The notes below the pieces were generated by a model. That model was not told the DNA's origin and did no database searches. It saw nothing but the letters and a program-made list of their open reading frames with translations. Made by a program: the position numbers and the translations under genes. Shown piece after piece: positions 33,315 to 43,223 of a stretch of 64,000 bases of DNA; position 1 is the first letter of the stretch; each line of letters begins with the position of its first letter. Origin of the DNA: Exiguobacterium profundum (GTDB lineage Bacteria > Bacillota > Bacilli > Exiguobacteriales > Exiguobacteriaceae). The stretch spans positions 1,799,051 to 1,863,050 of the forward strand of contig NZ_MRSV01000001.1 of NCBI RefSeq assembly GCF_001909285.1. The letters run 5' to 3'.

Positions 33315-33342
33315 AGTTTACATAACATATTATTGTAAACCT
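33315..33342 (-). repeat. dif-like recombination site A
   Basis: Read on the minus strand: left arm AGGTTTACAAT, 6-bp core AATATG, right arm TTATGTAAACT. The right arm is identical to the corresponding arm of the B. subtilis dif site as I recall it, and the two arms form an inverted repeat (GTTTACA/TGTAAAC). The TAA stop of the recombinase gene lies within it. It matches site B at 23 of 28 positions in inverted orientation. Confidence 0.65.
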
Positions 33343-34343
33343 GATATTGCGTGTTTTTTCCGTTCGTCTCCGATATGGGCATAGACTTGTGTCGTTGCTA
33401 CAGATTCATGTCCGAGAAGCTGCTGAATCGTGAGCACATCGACCCCACCCATCGCGAGACGTGAGGCGAAGGTGTGACGCAACTTATGCGGCGTCACCTG
33501 CTTATAGCTCAAGAACGGAAGGTAATGCTTCAAACGGTCAATATGACCTTTCAACATATGTTGAACCGTTCGTACAGCGATTCGATTTCCCTTCTCATTT
33601 TGGAACACCGCACCTTCGCTCGACGCGTGGCGATATTCAGAGAGGAGCGGAAGAAGTGGCTTTGCAATTGGGATCAATCGTTCCTTGTTCCCTTTACCGA
33701 TGACCCGAATCGTCCCGGTCTCGAGATTGATATCGGACCAATTGAGTCCGACAAGCTCGGATACGCGCATACCTGTTAGTCCGAGTAACTGTATGATTAA
33801 AAAATCACGTGCACGATTCAGTTCGTACCAACTCGACTCGCGATTCGTCATGCCGACGTTGCTACGTACAAGCGTCGAGAAATCGAGCCATTCCGATTCC
33901 GTCAAATAAACGGGATTCCGTTTGCCGCGCTTCGGACGTTCCACGGTTTGAAAGGGATTCACCGTCGCTTGATTGGTCTCGATTAAGTAATTGAAGAGTG
34001 ACTGTAACGTTGAGAGCTTCCGATTGATGACGCTTGGAGCGTTTTCGAGATCGAGGGCAAGATAAGTCGCATACGCTTCTGCACCGGCATGGTCAATCTC
34101 TGTGAATGATGCCAAGTCAATCGTTTCAGACTCTAACTCGGTACCGCTCACGCGCTCGACCCAACGAAAGAAATCTAAAACATCATACACATAGCGTTGG
34201 GCCGTCTGTTTGGAGTAGTGCTTTGCTGCAAAAAAATGAAAAAACTGTTGGATGAATGCGGGTAGTCGGTGCAACCCGTTCAACTCGAAGCGTTTCGTCG
34301 TCGTCGGTGTCTGCCGCTGTCCAAGTTGACCGAAAATACTCAT
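33330..34343 (-). CDS. Tyrosine recombinase (XerC/D/S-like)
   Basis: A 337-residue site-specific recombinase. The N-terminal SAM-like core-binding domain covers about 28-125 and the catalytic domain 145-337. All catalytic residues are present: Arg193 (GMRVSEL), Lys217 (GKGNKERL), His286 and Arg289 (HKLRHTF), His312 (LLGHES) and the nucleophile Tyr321 (TQVYAH). It is longer than XerC/XerD (about 300) and nearer XerS in size. The stop codon lies within dif-like site A. It starts 15 bases after the diguanylate cyclase gene, AAAGGGG upstream, so both are co-transcribed. It likely acts on the flanking sites A and B. Confidence 0.88.
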   Translation of the reverse strand: MSIFGQLGQRQTPTTTKRFELNGLHRLPAFIQQFFHFFAAKHYSKQTAQRYVYDVLDFFRWVERVSGTELESETIDLASFTEIDHAGAEAYATYLALDLENAPSVINRKLSTLQSLFNYLIETNQATVNPFQTVERPKRGKRNPVYLTESEWLDFSTLVRSNVGMTNRESSWYELNRARDFLIIQLLGLTGMRVSELVGLNWSDINLETGTIRVIGKGNKERLIPIAKPLLPLLSEYRHASSEGAVFQNEKGNRIAVRTVQHMLKGHIDRLKHYLPFLSYKQVTPHKLRHTFASRLAMGGVDVLTIQQLLGHESVATTQVYAHIGDERKKHAISGLQ

Positions 34344-34358
34344 GGAATGCCCCTTTCT

Positions 34359-35402
34359 TCATGTGGTTCTCACTTGATTCTTTCCGTTGCGCTTCCCTTC
34401 ACGAAGGAAGTCATCTGCCTCTTTTATAATCTCTTCTACCGTATCGTGACCAGTACGAACCGCAAGTCCGAATGTCATTGTGACCTGAAGTCTTTCCCCT
34501 GCGTAATAGAGAGGGATTGATTCGATTTGCTGTCTCAATTGTTCGGCGATTGTAAGGAAGTTATCGCATGGACTCGAAAAGAAAATCAGGAATTCCTCGC
34601 CTCCCCATCGGACTACAATGCCGTCGACGTCGGATAGGATGCTGGCGACTTGTTGTAGCACCCGGTCCCCACAATCATGTCCGTAAGTCTCGTTAAATGA
34701 TTTGAATCGATCAATGTCACCGAGGACGAGTGCGTATGGAATGCCTTCATGAGCGGCTTTGTCGATTGCTTTGGAAACCTGTTCATGCCCGACTTTTCGG
34801 TTCAATAGTCCGGTCAATCCATCCGTCGAGGCGAGAATTTGCAACCGCTCATTAGATTGTTCGAGTTCATCTGTCACTTCGACAACGGCTGACTCAAAGA
34901 CAAAGGAGAGCCCTGCAATCATCATCACGGTCGATAGGATACAAAAGAGTCCGAGCGCTTGTTCTATCTGTATCGGTAAGGTCTCGATGCCGTCAGATAC
35001 ATAGATGAATAGAAGGCTATAAATCAGCATGGCAATGGCCGTGGTGAAGATGCGTTGGCCTCTTGATACGCTTGGCATGAAAAAGACACCGTATGCCATC
35101 ATGAGGATAAAATAATGCATGTTGATCTCCCAGCCGAGTATAACGGTCGAGATGACGGCGTTGTAAACGACTTCGATAAAAAGTCCGGCAAAGAAAATTC
35201 CGTACCACCTTTTATGTACAAAATAGAATGAAATCGTGTAGTAGATCACACTCAAGCCATTTGATAGGAATAAGAGAGTCAAATCCAGACGATAAAACAA
35301 GATGCAAAATAGGAAGTGAACCAACCAGGCGATAACGTTGCCGTAAAAAGTAATACGTTCATTATATAGTGTTCCTCGACGAGTTTCATAGGTTGTTCCC
35401 AT
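34359..35402 (-). CDS. Membrane-bound diguanylate cyclase (GGDEF)
   Basis: A 347-residue protein with about six N-terminal membrane helices (20-185), a short coiled linker (FESAVVEVTDELEQSNERLQ) and a C-terminal GGDEF domain (about 190-345). The active site reads RWGGEEF, so catalysis is expected; the DIDRFKSFNETYGHDCGD segment carries the metal and substrate residues. It makes c-di-GMP from GTP, with the membrane part as likely sensor. AAAGGAGGTG precedes the ATG at 35402. It is the first gene of an operon with a tyrosine recombinase, an unusual pairing. Confidence 0.9.
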   Translation of the reverse strand: MGTTYETRRGTLYNERITFYGNVIAWLVHFLFCILFYRLDLTLLFLSNGLSVIYYTISFYFVHKRWYGIFFAGLFIEVVYNAVISTVILGWEINMHYFILMMAYGVFFMPSVSRGQRIFTTAIAMLIYSLLFIYVSDGIETLPIQIEQALGLFCILSTVMMIAGLSFVFESAVVEVTDELEQSNERLQILASTDGLTGLLNRKVGHEQVSKAIDKAAHEGIPYALVLGDIDRFKSFNETYGHDCGDRVLQQVASILSDVDGIVVRWGGEEFLIFFSSPCDNFLTIAEQLRQQIESIPLYYAGERLQVTMTFGLAVRTGHDTVEEIIKEADDFLREGKRNGKNQVRTT

Positions 35403-35499
35403 CGCACACCTCCTTTCTTTTAGTATAACGAAACAATGAACAAATTTATATAAATGTCCGAAAAACGGATTCAAAAAACGCTCTTATCTCGTATGTATT

Positions 35500-35527
35500 A
35501 TTGCGTGAAATAGATATTTCACGCAAT
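35500..35527. repeat. 28-bp perfect palindrome upstream of the diguanylate cyclase
   Basis: ATTGCGTGAAATA and TATTTCACGCAAT are perfect 13-bp arms around GA. A further ATTGCGTG occurs at 35536-35543, and another at 33346-33353 just inside site A. It lies about 100 bp upstream of the cyclase start, outside any gene, and could be an operator or accessory protein site. It has no T tract on either side, so it is not a typical terminator. Confidence 0.6.
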
Positions 35528-35596
35528 GTACATGAATTGCGTGATTGTATCTCAATCGAGTGGTTAATCGACCGATTGATTTTATAGCAAAATAAA

Positions 35597-35624
35597 TGGT
35601 AGACAATAATTTGTTATGTAAACC
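35597..35624 (+). repeat. dif-like recombination site B
   Basis: Left arm TGGTAGACAAT, core AATTTG, right arm TTATGTAAACC. It matches site A in 23 of 28 positions (core 5/6, right arm 10/11) but in the opposite orientation, so the right arms of A and B point away from the recombinase-cyclase segment. Recombination between them would invert about 2.3 kb. Confidence 0.6.
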
Positions 35625-35742: not shown

Positions 35743-36147
35743 ATGGATGATCAGCGTTTGAAGCAACTTTTGTCTGAAGCGAAGACCATCGCGGTCGTCG
35801 GTGTGTCCGACAACCCGAACAAGACGGCCAACCAGATTGCGGAGTATTTGCTTCGTGTCGGGTATACCGTCATCCCTGTCAACCCGATGCTCGAGGAGTG
35901 GAACGGCCGTAAGGCGTATCCGTCCGTCGAGAGCATCCCGGGTAGAATCGATATCGTCGACGTGTTCCGTCGCAGCGAATTTTTAGCGGGCGTCGCGGAA
36001 GATGCGGTACGACATGGGGATGTCGGGCTCGTCTTCAACCAGCTCGGTCTCTCAAGTGCTGAGGCGGAGCAAATCGTGCGTGACGCCGGGCTCGATTATA
36101 TCGAGAACCGCTGCCTGTACGTGGAGCATGCTCGTCTACTCGGATAA
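35743..36147 (+). CDS. CoA-binding protein (YccU/CoA_binding_2 family)
   Basis: A 134-residue Rossmann-like protein: IAVVGVSDNPNKTANQIAEYL near the N-terminus is the CoA/nucleotide-binding loop, followed by GYTVIPVNPMLEEWNGRKAYPSV (read in parts) and the C-terminal GLDYIENRCLYVEHARLL with a conserved Cys. The family is related to the CoA-binding domain of succinyl-CoA synthetase; its role is unknown. AAAGGGGG lies upstream of the ATG. It is monocistronic, with its own promoter and terminator, as a neighbour of parE. Confidence 0.88.
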   Translation: MDDQRLKQLLSEAKTIAVVGVSDNPNKTANQIAEYLLRVGYTVIPVNPMLEEWNGRKAYPSVESIPGRIDIVDVFRRSEFLAGVAEDAVRHGDVGLVFNQLGLSSAEAEQIVRDAGLDYIENRCLYVEHARLLG

Positions 36148-36273: not shown

Positions 36274-38241
36274 ATGTCAACAGATCTATTTAATTACAAT
36301 GAAGACGCCATCCAGGTGCTCGAAGGACTCACGGCCGTGCGGAAACGACCGGGGATGTACATCGGGTCAACCGACCATCGCGGACTTCACCATCTCGTCT
36401 ATGAGATCGTCGACAACGCAATCGATGAGGCGCTCGCCGGGTTCGGCGGTCAAATCGATGTGACGATTCATAAGGACGATGCCATCACGGTCCGTGACCA
36501 CGGCCGCGGGATGCCGACAGGAATGCACGCCTCTGGAAAGCCTACCCCAGAAGTCATTTTTACGGTCCTTCACGCTGGAGGAAAGTTCGGACAAGGCGGA
36601 TACAAGACGTCTGGTGGACTCCACGGCGTCGGTGCTTCGGTCGTCAACGCCCTATCAAGCAAGGTCGTCGTGACGATTTATCGTGACGGAAAAGTGTTCG
36701 AACAGACCTTTGCAGACGGCGGTGTGCCTCAAACGACACTGATTGAGACAGGCAAGACACGCCAAACCGGCACGAGTGTCTATTTCAAACCGGATGCGAC
36801 CATCTTCTCAACGACGACGTATAACTATGACACGCTCGCCGAACGCCTCCGTGAATCGGCTTTCCTCTTAAAAGGATTGACGATCACGCTCACTGATGAG
36901 CGTACGGAGAAGCAAGAGACGTTCCATTACGAGGAAGGGATTGCCGAGTTCGTCCAATACTTGAACGACGATAAGGCGACACTCCACCCAATCGTCTATT
37001 TCGAAGGGGTCGAGAATGAGATCGAGATCGAACTCGCGTTTCAGTTCACGGACGCCTATTCCGAAAATGTGCTCTCGTTCGTCAACAACGTCCGGACACG
37101 CGATGGTGGAACGCACGAGGTCGGTGCCAAGACGGCGATGACCCGAATCATGAACGAATATGCACGGAAGAACGGTTTACTCAAAGAGAAAGATAAAAAT
37201 CTCGACGGCGGCGACGTCCGTGAGGGACTCACGCTCATCGTGTCGGTCCGGATCCCGGAGGAATTCCTCCAGTTCGAGGGGCAGACGAAGTCGAAACTCG
37301 GGTCACCGGAGGCACGTGCGAGCGCTGACAGCGTCATGGCGAAACAGTTGACGATCTTCCTAGAAGAGAACCCTCAGATGGCAACGATGCTCATCAAGAA
37401 GGCGATTCGTGCGGCACAGGCTCGCGAGGCGGCCCGCAAGGCACGGGAAGAGGCCCGTAACGGGAAGAAAAAGAAACGTTCGAGCATCTTGAACGGAAAA
37501 TTGACGCCTGCGACGTCAAAGAATGCAGCTAAGAACGAGCTCTTTCTCGTCGAGGGTGACTCGGCCGGTGGTTCAGCCAAACAAGGGCGGGACCGTACGT
37601 TCCAGGCTATCCTGCCGTTGCGCGGGAAGGTCATCAACTCGGAGAAGTCGAAACTCCAGGACATCATGAAAAACGAAGAGATCAACACGATCATCCATGC
37701 AATCGGCGCCGGGGTCGGTCACGATTTTGATTTGGACGACTGCAACTTCGACAAGGTCATCATCATGACGGATGCCGACACGGACGGTGCACACATCCAG
37801 GTGCTCCTCCTCACGTTCTTCTTCCGTTATATGCGACCGCTCGTCGAGGCAGGCCGCGTGTTCGTTGCCTTGCCACCGCTCTATCGCATCTCAAAAGGGA
37901 AGGGCAAGTCCGAACAGTTCGACTATGCCTGGGACGAAGAGGCACTCGAGAAGCTCGTCAAAGTGTATAAGAAAGGCTATATCCTCCAACGCTACAAAGG
38001 TCTTGGCGAGATGAACGCGGACCAGTTATGGGAGACGACGATGAACCCGGACACTCGTACACTCATCCGTGTCACAGTCGACGATGCGGCCGTTGCGGAT
38101 AAGCGTGTGTCTGTCCTGATGGGCGACAATGTCACGCACCGTCGTGAATGGATTGAGGAGAACGTCGCCTTCGGACTCCAAGAAGATGATTCGATCATCG
38201 CCAATGAACATGTGACTAAAGCGATTGAGGAAGTGATGTAA
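36274..38241 (+). CDS. parE: DNA topoisomerase IV subunit B
   Basis: A 655-residue GHKL ATPase/TOPRIM subunit. N-terminal features: VLEGLTAVRKRPGMYIGS, the Bergerat fold residues in EIVDNAIDEALAG and the GGLHGVGASVVNALS loop. TOPRIM motifs follow: LVEGDSAGGSAKQGRDR and the metal-binding MTDADTDGAH. The length and the ParC partner immediately downstream identify ParE rather than GyrB. It decatenates chromosomes and relaxes supercoils. ATG 36274 follows GAGGTG; an in-frame upstream ATG at 36184 overlaps the promoter and is unlikely. The stop is 2 bases before parC. Confidence 0.96.
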   Translation: MSTDLFNYNEDAIQVLEGLTAVRKRPGMYIGSTDHRGLHHLVYEIVDNAIDEALAGFGGQIDVTIHKDDAITVRDHGRGMPTGMHASGKPTPEVIFTVLHAGGKFGQGGYKTSGGLHGVGASVVNALSSKVVVTIYRDGKVFEQTFADGGVPQTTLIETGKTRQTGTSVYFKPDATIFSTTTYNYDTLAERLRESAFLLKGLTITLTDERTEKQETFHYEEGIAEFVQYLNDDKATLHPIVYFEGVENEIEIELAFQFTDAYSENVLSFVNNVRTRDGGTHEVGAKTAMTRIMNEYARKNGLLKEKDKNLDGGDVREGLTLIVSVRIPEEFLQFEGQTKSKLGSPEARASADSVMAKQLTIFLEENPQMATMLIKKAIRAAQAREAARKAREEARNGKKKKRSSILNGKLTPATSKNAAKNELFLVEGDSAGGSAKQGRDRTFQAILPLRGKVINSEKSKLQDIMKNEEINTIIHAIGAGVGHDFDLDDCNFDKVIIMTDADTDGAHIQVLLLTFFFRYMRPLVEAGRVFVALPPLYRISKGKGKSEQFDYAWDEEALEKLVKVYKKGYILQRYKGLGEMNADQLWETTMNPDTRTLIRVTVDDAAVADKRVSVLMGDNVTHRREWIEENVAFGLQEDDSIIANEHVTKAIEEVM

Positions 38242-38243
38242 CG

Positions 38244-40649
38244 ATGTCGACGATTCAACACATTTTAAACCTATCTCTCGAACAGGTCGTTGGAGACCGG
38301 TTCGGGCGTTACTCAAAATATATCATCCAAGACCGTGCCTTACCGGACGCACGTGACGGACTCAAGCCTGTACAGCGCAGGATTCTATATGCGATGCACC
38401 ACGAGGGGAATACGAACGATAAGCCCTATCGGAAGTCTGCGAAGACGGTCGGGAACGTCATCGGGAACTATCACCCGCACGGTGACTCGTCCGTCTATGA
38501 GGCGATGGTACGTCTCTCACAAGATTGGAAACTCCGGTATCCGCTCATCGACATGCATGGGAACAACGGATCGATGGATGGTGACCCGGCGGCGGCCATG
38601 CGTTACACGGAAGCCCGTCTCTCGAAGATTGCGGGTGTCATGTTGACGTCAATCGCGAAGAATACGGTCGATTACACGCCGAACTTTGACGATTCAACGG
38701 AAGAACCGCTCGTCTTGCCGTCGCTCCTCCCGAACCTGCTCATGAACGGAACGACAGGGATTTCAGCCGGTTATGCGACGGAGATCCCACCGCATAACTT
38801 GACAGAAGTCCTCAACCTTGCCATCGCACGTTTGAAAGGTCAGGTCGATACCGCTAAAGATGCACTCGAGTATGTCACGGGTCCTGACTTCCCGACCGGG
38901 GGGACGGTCATGGGTAAAGACGGTATCCTAAAGGCGTTCGAGACCGGTAAAGGGAAGGTCATCATCCGGGCGAAGTCCGAGATTGAGCAATTAAAAGGTG
39001 GCCGTGAACAGATCACGATCACAGAACTTCCGTATGAAGTGAATAAGGCGAACCTCGTCAAAAAGATGGAAGAGCTCCGCCTCGATAAAAAGGTTGAAGG
39101 CGTCGCAGAAGTCCGTGACGAAACAGATCGGACGGGACTTCGAGTCGTCATCGAATTGAAGAAAGAGGCCGACGCAGAAGGTGTGCTTCACTTCTTTTTG
39201 AAGCATACGGACTTGCAACTCGCCTATAACTATAATATGGTCTCCATCGTGAACCGGACGCCGAAGCAGATGGGAATCATCCCGATCATCGATGCTTACT
39301 TGAAGCATGTCGAAGAGGTCGTGACGCGCAGGACGACGTTCGAGCTCGAGCAGGCGAAGAAACGCGCTGAAATCGTCGATGCCTTAGAACAAGCCATCTC
39401 GGTCCTCGATGAGACACTTGAATTGATCCGTTCCGCCAAAGACAAGGCGGACGCGAAGAAGAAACTGATGGAGCGGTTCTCATTCACGGAACGACAAGCC
39501 GAAGCCGTCGTCATGCTCCAATTGTATCGACTCACGAATACGGACATCGTCGAGTTGCAAAAAGAGGCAAAGGCGCTCCAAAAAGAGATTGCCCGCCTCT
39601 CAAACATCCTCGACGTGGACGCGACAAAACGGAAGTTGATCGTGAAAGAACTTACGGCATTGCGTGACGAGTTCGGAGATGACCGTCGTTCGGTCATCGA
39701 GTCGGAAGTTGAGGAATTAAAACTGAAGACGGAAGTTATGATTGCTGTCGAAGAGACGATGGTATTCGTCAGCCGTGACGGGTACGTCAAACGTGCCTCG
39801 ATGCGTTCGTATGGAGCGTCGAGTGACGTTTTACCGGAGATGAAAGAAAAGGATCGTCCACTCCTTACGACACAAGCCATGACGACGGACCACTTGCTCG
39901 TCTGGACGAACAAGGGCAGCTACCTCCTCATCCCGATCCATCAGATTCCAGAATCGAAGTGGAAGGATGCCGGACAACACGTGGCCAACCTCGTTCCGAT
40001 TGAAGGGGAACAGGTTATCTCGGCAGACGTCGTCTCGACGTTTGATACGGACGCCCATTGCCTCTTCGTGACGAAAGACGGGATGGTCAAACGTACACCG
40101 TTACGCGACTACGACGCGCAGCGGAAATCGAAACCACTCATGGCCTTGAAGCTGAAAGGTGACGACGAGGTCGTCTTCGCCGGGATCAGTGACGGTCCAG
40201 GGCAGTTGTTCCTTGTTTCAGAGCGTGGATACGGGCTCTGGTTCAAAGAGGATGATGTCCCTGTCGTCGGACAGCGGGCAGCCGGTGTGAAGGCGATGAA
40301 CCTGAAAGACGGTGACCTCGTCGCCGATGCCTTCTCCTTCTTCACGCCACCATTATTCGTTCTCGTGACGCAACGGGGAGCGGTCAAGAAGATGAAGCTC
40401 GAGGACCAGTTCGACTGTACGAACCGCAACCTTCGGGGGACGATGCTCATTCGTGAGGTCAAATCAAAACCGCACCAAATCCGTCGTGTGCTTCCGGTGC
40501 ATGGGGATGAGACGCTTCATATCGTCGGAAAAGAAAAAGCAAAACAAGTAAAGACAAAAACCCTTACGCTACTCGATCGCTATGCCAACGGCTCGTTCGT
40601 CTTTGACGAAGACTCGTTCGGTGAAATCGAGGACGTGTATCTCGATTAA
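38244..40649 (+). CDS. parC: DNA topoisomerase IV subunit A
   Basis: An 801-residue cleavage-rejoining subunit. The active-site tyrosine is Tyr121 (AMRYTEARLS). The quinolone-resistance region reads HPHGDSSVYEAM (77-88): the positions equivalent to S. aureus GrlA Ser80 and Glu84 are Ser82 and Glu86, so the wild-type, susceptible residues are present. The C-terminal half forms a degenerate beta-pinwheel (repeats such as LFVTKDGMVKRTPLRDY). The length is typical of Bacillales ParC. It is co-transcribed with parE. Confidence 0.96.
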   Translation: MSTIQHILNLSLEQVVGDRFGRYSKYIIQDRALPDARDGLKPVQRRILYAMHHEGNTNDKPYRKSAKTVGNVIGNYHPHGDSSVYEAMVRLSQDWKLRYPLIDMHGNNGSMDGDPAAAMRYTEARLSKIAGVMLTSIAKNTVDYTPNFDDSTEEPLVLPSLLPNLLMNGTTGISAGYATEIPPHNLTEVLNLAIARLKGQVDTAKDALEYVTGPDFPTGGTVMGKDGILKAFETGKGKVIIRAKSEIEQLKGGREQITITELPYEVNKANLVKKMEELRLDKKVEGVAEVRDETDRTGLRVVIELKKEADAEGVLHFFLKHTDLQLAYNYNMVSIVNRTPKQMGIIPIIDAYLKHVEEVVTRRTTFELEQAKKRAEIVDALEQAISVLDETLELIRSAKDKADAKKKLMERFSFTERQAEAVVMLQLYRLTNTDIVELQKEAKALQKEIARLSNILDVDATKRKLIVKELTALRDEFGDDRRSVIESEVEELKLKTEVMIAVEETMVFVSRDGYVKRASMRSYGASSDVLPEMKEKDRPLLTTQAMTTDHLLVWTNKGSYLLIPIHQIPESKWKDAGQHVANLVPIEGEQVISADVVSTFDTDAHCLFVTKDGMVKRTPLRDYDAQRKSKPLMALKLKGDDEVVFAGISDGPGQLFLVSERGYGLWFKEDDVPVVGQRAAGVKAMNLKDGDLVADAFSFFTPPLFVLVTQRGAVKKMKLEDQFDCTNRNLRGTMLIREVKSKPHQIRRVLPVHGDETLHIVGKEKAKQVKTKTLTLLDRYANGSFVFDEDSFGEIEDVYLD

Positions 40650-43135: not shown

Positions 43136-43223
<88 letters not shown>

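Follow-up and report, generated by a model that had tools for sequence, protein, structure and literature searches.

The prevailing view of dimer resolution is that a chromosome has one Xer system, with XerS or XerH replacing XerCD. The known single-Xer modules are XerS, XerH and XerL. XerH/difH, found in Campylobacter and Helicobacter, is a gene-linked module of a single recombinase. Passages on XerS/difSL of streptococci and lactococci describe one recombinase whose site lies in its own promoter region, at the terminus (PMC5357621, PMC2731167), and passages on XerL/dif of Legionellales describe a single recombinase with long uninterrupted inverted repeats that are exploited by a mobile element (PMC9765430). 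In Lactobacillus helveticus, XerC, XerD and XerS occur together in one strain, a possible evolutionary intermediate according to the passages on that strain (PMC3025954).

We analysed a 64,000-nucleotide stretch of Exiguobacterium profundum DNA (the window), comparing it with 38 genomes of the family and with 41 genomes of a second Bacilli family. The window holds a locus that we consider likely to be a single-recombinase Xer module at the terminus, laid out like XerS/difSL and standing beside an intact XerCD/dif system. Its features, by position in the window, are:

33315-33342, minus strand: site A, a dif-like imperfect palindrome over the recombinase stop codon, its position kept in 38 of 38 family genomes
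33330-34343, minus strand: third Xer-type tyrosine recombinase, 337 amino acids, with its catalytic residues, present in 38 of 38 family genomes and in a clade of its own
34359-35402, minus strand: GGDEF diguanylate cyclase gene with a hydrophobic N-terminal half, between the palindrome and the recombinase
35501-35526, unstranded: 26-bp palindrome TTGCGTGAAAT-AGAT-ATTTCACGCAA, proposed cognate site of the recombinase, 5' of the operon
35597-35624, plus strand: site B, a second dif-like site, 5' of the CoA-binding gene
35743-36147, plus strand: CoA-binding-domain protein, a conserved neighbour
36274-40649, plus strand: parE and parC, encoding topoisomerase IV, conserved neighbours that separate the module from dif
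43186-43213, plus strand: canonical dif (TTTACTGATAA TATATG TTATGTAAACT), the presumed XerCD site, one per genome in 38 of 38

Alignment of the recombinase to XerD placed a complete residue set (R193, K217, H286, R289, H312 and Y321), the same catalytic set as in XerCD/dif of Bacilli, and the motif of the adjacent GGDEF gene is intact (GGEEF); the original prediction, made from the window's letters, was right on both enzymes. The protein, however, scored below the cut-offs of the XerC and XerD models (194 and 180 bits against 335 and 330) and lies in a separate clade, which rules it out as either. It reached 161.8 bits with the XerS model, whose cut-off is 267, and its sequence similarity to XerH was weak (56 bits). 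Two maximum-likelihood trees, whose long branches make the deeper order unsure, united the recombinases of both families (98/95 and 100/98) and separated them from XerS (100/99 and 100/100) as well as from the XerC+XerD group. Orthology with XerS is ruled out by the score and the two trees. The nearest named relatives of the window's protein are from Exiguobacterium species, and orthologs of ~40-45% identity are present in 18 of the 41 genomes of the second family.

Elsewhere in its genome, the window's organism encodes an XerD, which at 364 bits exceeds the curated cut-off and lies beside what is presumably a phosphopentomutase gene, and an XerC-type protein, best matched by XerC at 298 bits (cut-off 335), whose gene adjoins what we take, from sequence, to be hslVU. 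The recombinase is therefore a third Xer-type protein; the XerC and XerD genes were checked in the window's own genome, and dif in 38 genomes. Directly 5' of the xerD gene of G000 there is a dif-type half site with one mismatch (C1:1650459-1650474, L011). XerS-family proteins above the cut-off are common in other Bacilli. A third Xer group, from other Bacilli families, consists of L130, L133 and L239, which form one clade (100/100); the gene is preceded by a palindrome of 26-30 bp, whose outer arms are of the TTGCGTGT type in two cases. In L133 the upstream palindrome is TTGCGTGTAATGTATCTTACACGCAA, with the same outer arms, and a dif-like palindrome follows the stop codon.

As far as the passages on XerS/difSL go, the locus shares with that system one Xer-type recombinase of similar size, a terminal position and a candidate site 5' of its own gene or operon. 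This adjacency extends to all 38 family genomes, where the palindrome is 5' of the recombinase or of the GGDEF-recombinase operon, and to the second family; the palindrome would be the cognate site. Unlike difSL, which is 31 bp long with an 11-bp centre, the Exiguobacterium site is a near-perfect 26-bp palindrome, and unlike XerS, which replaces XerCD, the recombinase belongs to a separate, supported clade and has XerC, XerD and dif in the same genome. XerH likewise replaces XerCD, and differs from the recombinase in sequence. With XerL/dif, as described in passages of PMC9765430, the locus has in common the single recombinase, the long inverted repeats and the use by mobile elements; XerL, however, is there the sole dimer-resolution enzyme, lies far from its site in L. 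pneumophila and belongs to a different phylum. The passages on L. helveticus offer the parallel of two systems per genome and a single-Xer gene near the skew shift, but report one strain, with no XerS site found (PMC3025954), whereas here the coexistence is family-wide and both sites are identified.

The window is the replication terminus. GC skew, sampled in 20-kb stretches of the window's genome, is positive between ~0.5 and 1.78 Mb and negative from 1.90 Mb onwards, having changed sign inside the window. The original prediction had passed over both the 26-bp palindrome and the real dif (TTTACTGATAATATATGTTATGTAAACT), which lies in an intergenic gap 7.7 kb from the palindrome. Each of 38 genomes has the dif core a single time, on that side of the module where parC lies; with this better and unique match in all genomes, A and B were dropped as candidates for the chromosome's dif. 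Throughout the family the locus belongs to the core genome and keeps its synteny with parE-parC; in 38 of 38 genomes the recombinase is encoded on the other strand from the CoA-binding gene and these two. In most of the 18 second-family genomes the 20-kb recombinase loci also include CoA-binding, parE and parC homologs, and a dif-type match lies ~9-90 kb from the recombinase wherever both can be placed on one contig. This synteny speaks, for the present, against the mobile module that had been suggested. One second-family genome, G425, has two exact copies of the dif core plus right half 3.8 kb apart (C91:125786 and 129578), which suggests an element integrated at dif.

Sites A and B proved to lie where they had been predicted. 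They are identical at 23 of 28 bases by direct reading, and the right arm TTATGTAAAC is common to both and matches dif; a repeat search of the window returned their region as a 38-bp inverted pair, 82% complementary and 2242 bp apart. The predicted 11-bp arms around a 6-bp core, the plan of a 28-bp XerCD site, did not hold up. Where dif has N6, the spacing of A and B is N4 (ATAA-N4-TTAT) in Exiguobacterium and N5 in its sister genus; A and B are therefore not copies of dif. We searched 38 whole family genomes for the motif GTnnACnATAAn4TTATGTAAAC, allowing two mismatches at most. Exactly two copies per genome lay beside the recombinase in 19 of 19 Exiguobacterium species, with a few scattered two-mismatch strays elsewhere, and a reversed-pattern control gave 0-1 matches in the Exiguobacterium genomes; the pair at the recombinase is thus more than chance.

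Our favoured guess is that A and B, as conserved accessory elements, serve as binding sites with an accessory or regulatory role. XerC/XerD or the third Xer are predicted to bind them without strand exchange, thereby organising the terminus or modulating recombination or expression; this is compatible with a single-Xer module at the locus. A conserved XerD-type arm joined to a spacing unlike that of dif favours such a role, as does the conserved position at the stop codon, where our computation found a dif-like palindrome for XerS also. Site B, however, varies in the sister genus, and we hold this account of the two sites tentatively, as one with nearly even prospects.

The palindrome at xerS is an observation in its own right. 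Among 17 streptococcal-type genomes, assigned by their XerS and difSL sequences, 15 have ACATAA-N6-TTATGT no more than 8 bp from the xerS stop codon (L193-L208), and we found no mention of it in the literature passages on XerS/difSL. In L151, L156 and L164 (and L152), a dif-like palindrome (AGTTAACATAATAAATAATTATGTTAACT or similar) lies within the recombinase coding sequence, where it encodes VNIINNYVNS-like residues; in other relatives it lies shortly 3' of the gene.

The 26-bp palindrome (TTGCGTGAAATAGATATTTCACGCAA; core TGAAAT-N4-ATTTCA) is present with intact arms at the recombinase locus in all 38 family genomes, and the reversed-pattern control gave no match in any of them. All 26 columns are invariant across the 19 Exiguobacterium species, against a mean of 0.735 for the rest of the intergenic alignment, and no other 26-bp block of that region is fully invariant. 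There is one palindrome per chromosome, at the terminus, and a few genomes have extra copies with 2-3 mismatches on other, mostly small contigs. A chromosome contig of G032 carries a second palindrome with three mismatches, of the plasmid class (L192 10052-10077), possibly in an integrated plasmid-like element. In the second family, a related palindrome with the same core and different outer arms (GTTCnnTGAAATn4ATTTCACAGAAC) occurs in exactly those 18 genomes that have the recombinase, the other 23 lacking both, and always directly 5' of the recombinase start. Palindromes of this type were sought 5' of ordinary XerC/XerD-type matches, and none was found. The co-occurrence, together with the plasmid copies described below, points to the palindrome as the putative crossover site of the recombinase.

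Copies of the palindrome also occur on mobile elements. Several family genomes have, on 4-5-kb contigs, variants in which one arm is intact and the other matches at 9/11. A 30-nt query against the 7.3 Gb of plasmid sequence in PLSDB matched six plasmids, all from Exiguobacterium and mostly 4-5-kb circles, with one site each (pEXIG01, pMC3, pEspA, pEprTSS-3, a 4.3-kb plasmid of E. mexicanum and a 184-kb plasmid); the sites fall into two recurring sequence classes. A scan of the 2.9 million viral contigs of IMG/VR returned one perfect palindrome, on a phage-like contig of 121 kb that has DNA in common with Exiguobacterium plasmids (L229 969-994). This contig also has a further tyrosine recombinase gene, plus a weak second match, and because of that gene it may be an Exiguobacterium phage-plasmid.

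The palindrome could instead be a transcriptional operator, bound by the recombinase or another regulator, while the recombinase acts elsewhere, for example at A and B. In most second-family genomes a -35/-10 pair, TTCACA-N17-TAAA(C/A)T, begins in the right arm of the palindrome, which thus overlaps the recombinase promoter there, and A and B are specific to the recombinase locus. On plasmids and on the phage-like contig, however, the palindrome stands as a single intergenic copy with no such operon; these single copies resemble multimer-resolution sites for a host recombinase, and the operator of a chromosomal operon is not expected on plasmids. The plasmid search found no A/B-type sites on Exiguobacterium plasmids, and the perfect co-occurrence of palindrome and recombinase likewise tells against a purely regulatory site, which we consider unlikely. 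The single-Xer module has points to answer as well: besides the possibility of an operator, one arm is degenerate (9/11 matches) in most plasmid sites, and the window's palindrome lies ~100 bp 5' of the first gene, outside any obvious promoter. The presence of XerCD/dif further implies that the function of the module may be redundant or mainly directed at plasmids.

Alternatively, XerCD may long ago have integrated the module at dif, in the manner of an IMEX; the module would since have become fixed, with A and B as scars. Dif-type right arms on both sides, a dif nearby and a direct orientation of the two sites in most species would fit such an origin. The arm spacing, however, is 4-5 bp rather than 6, the left arm of site A is coding sequence (the recombinase codons G-L-Q-stop), the right arms remain conserved, which is unexpected of scars, and a similar palindrome lies at the 3' end of streptococcal xerS. 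Nor does the module show the patchy presence and dif-compatible direct repeats of an IMEX, being universal and syntenic in the family with a dif-incompatible spacing. An origin by integration is improbable on this evidence.

The original prediction had drawn A and B pointing outwards around the operon, as sites of a possible invertible switch linked to c-di-GMP. The sites are indeed inverted in the window, and in 7 of the 19 Exiguobacterium species overall, but B is direct relative to A in the other 12. Any link to c-di-GMP is confined to Exiguobacterium proper, the one genus in which the GGDEF gene is found at the locus; in the sister genus the recombinase directly follows the palindrome. It is at most a genus-level addition, and we rejected the idea that c-di-GMP control lies at the heart of the system. 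The comparison of the locus among relatives that had been proposed found gene orientation fixed in 38 of 38 genomes, yet the A/B sites conserved. A phase switch in which recombination between A and B inverts (or excises) the 2.3-kb GGDEF-recombinase segment is thus scarcely credible, for all that the two sites are alike, conserved and flank the module: the invariant gene orientation and the 12 of 19 species with direct sites exclude inversion as a conserved function, and the sister genus has no GGDEF gene to switch.

For the single-Xer module we propose the following mechanism, predicted from sequence. The recombinase would bind the palindrome as two identical subunits, each on its own TTGCGTGAAAT arm, and would without a partner enzyme recombine two palindrome copies across their short centre. 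The single chromosomal palindrome lies near the skew change, and this position points to a putative role in resolving dimers at the terminus, alongside the action of XerCD at dif, 7.7 kb away. On the plasmids and the phage-like element, with one copy each, the host recombinase would resolve multimers. Occupancy of the palindrome would probably also shut down the recombinase's own promoter, as the -35 overlap in the second family suggests. The self-contained recombination unit of the original prediction is in this respect well supported, although its site would be the palindrome and not the A/B pair.

In open-licence papers we found nothing on XerC/XerD or dif of Exiguobacterium or on a third Xer, nor did the open-licence literature yield a separate clade of single Xer enzymes that has a site of its own, is kept family-wide beside intact XerCD/dif and is used by plasmids. 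We suggest, with some reserve and as something that could fall either way, that the whole family keeps two independent dimer-resolution systems at its terminus, that mobile elements use the second, and that the layout recurs in L130, L133 and L239. Since these three loci have the same arrangement of gene and upstream palindrome, second Xer systems may be common and overlooked. The short, distinct palindrome is a potential new recombination tool, and could help to assign plasmids to the host Xer on which they depend. Stable coexistence of two systems at one terminus throughout a family would challenge the picture of one system per chromosome, and would make a division of labour testable, whether between chromosome and plasmid, by cell-cycle stage or by dependence on FtsK.
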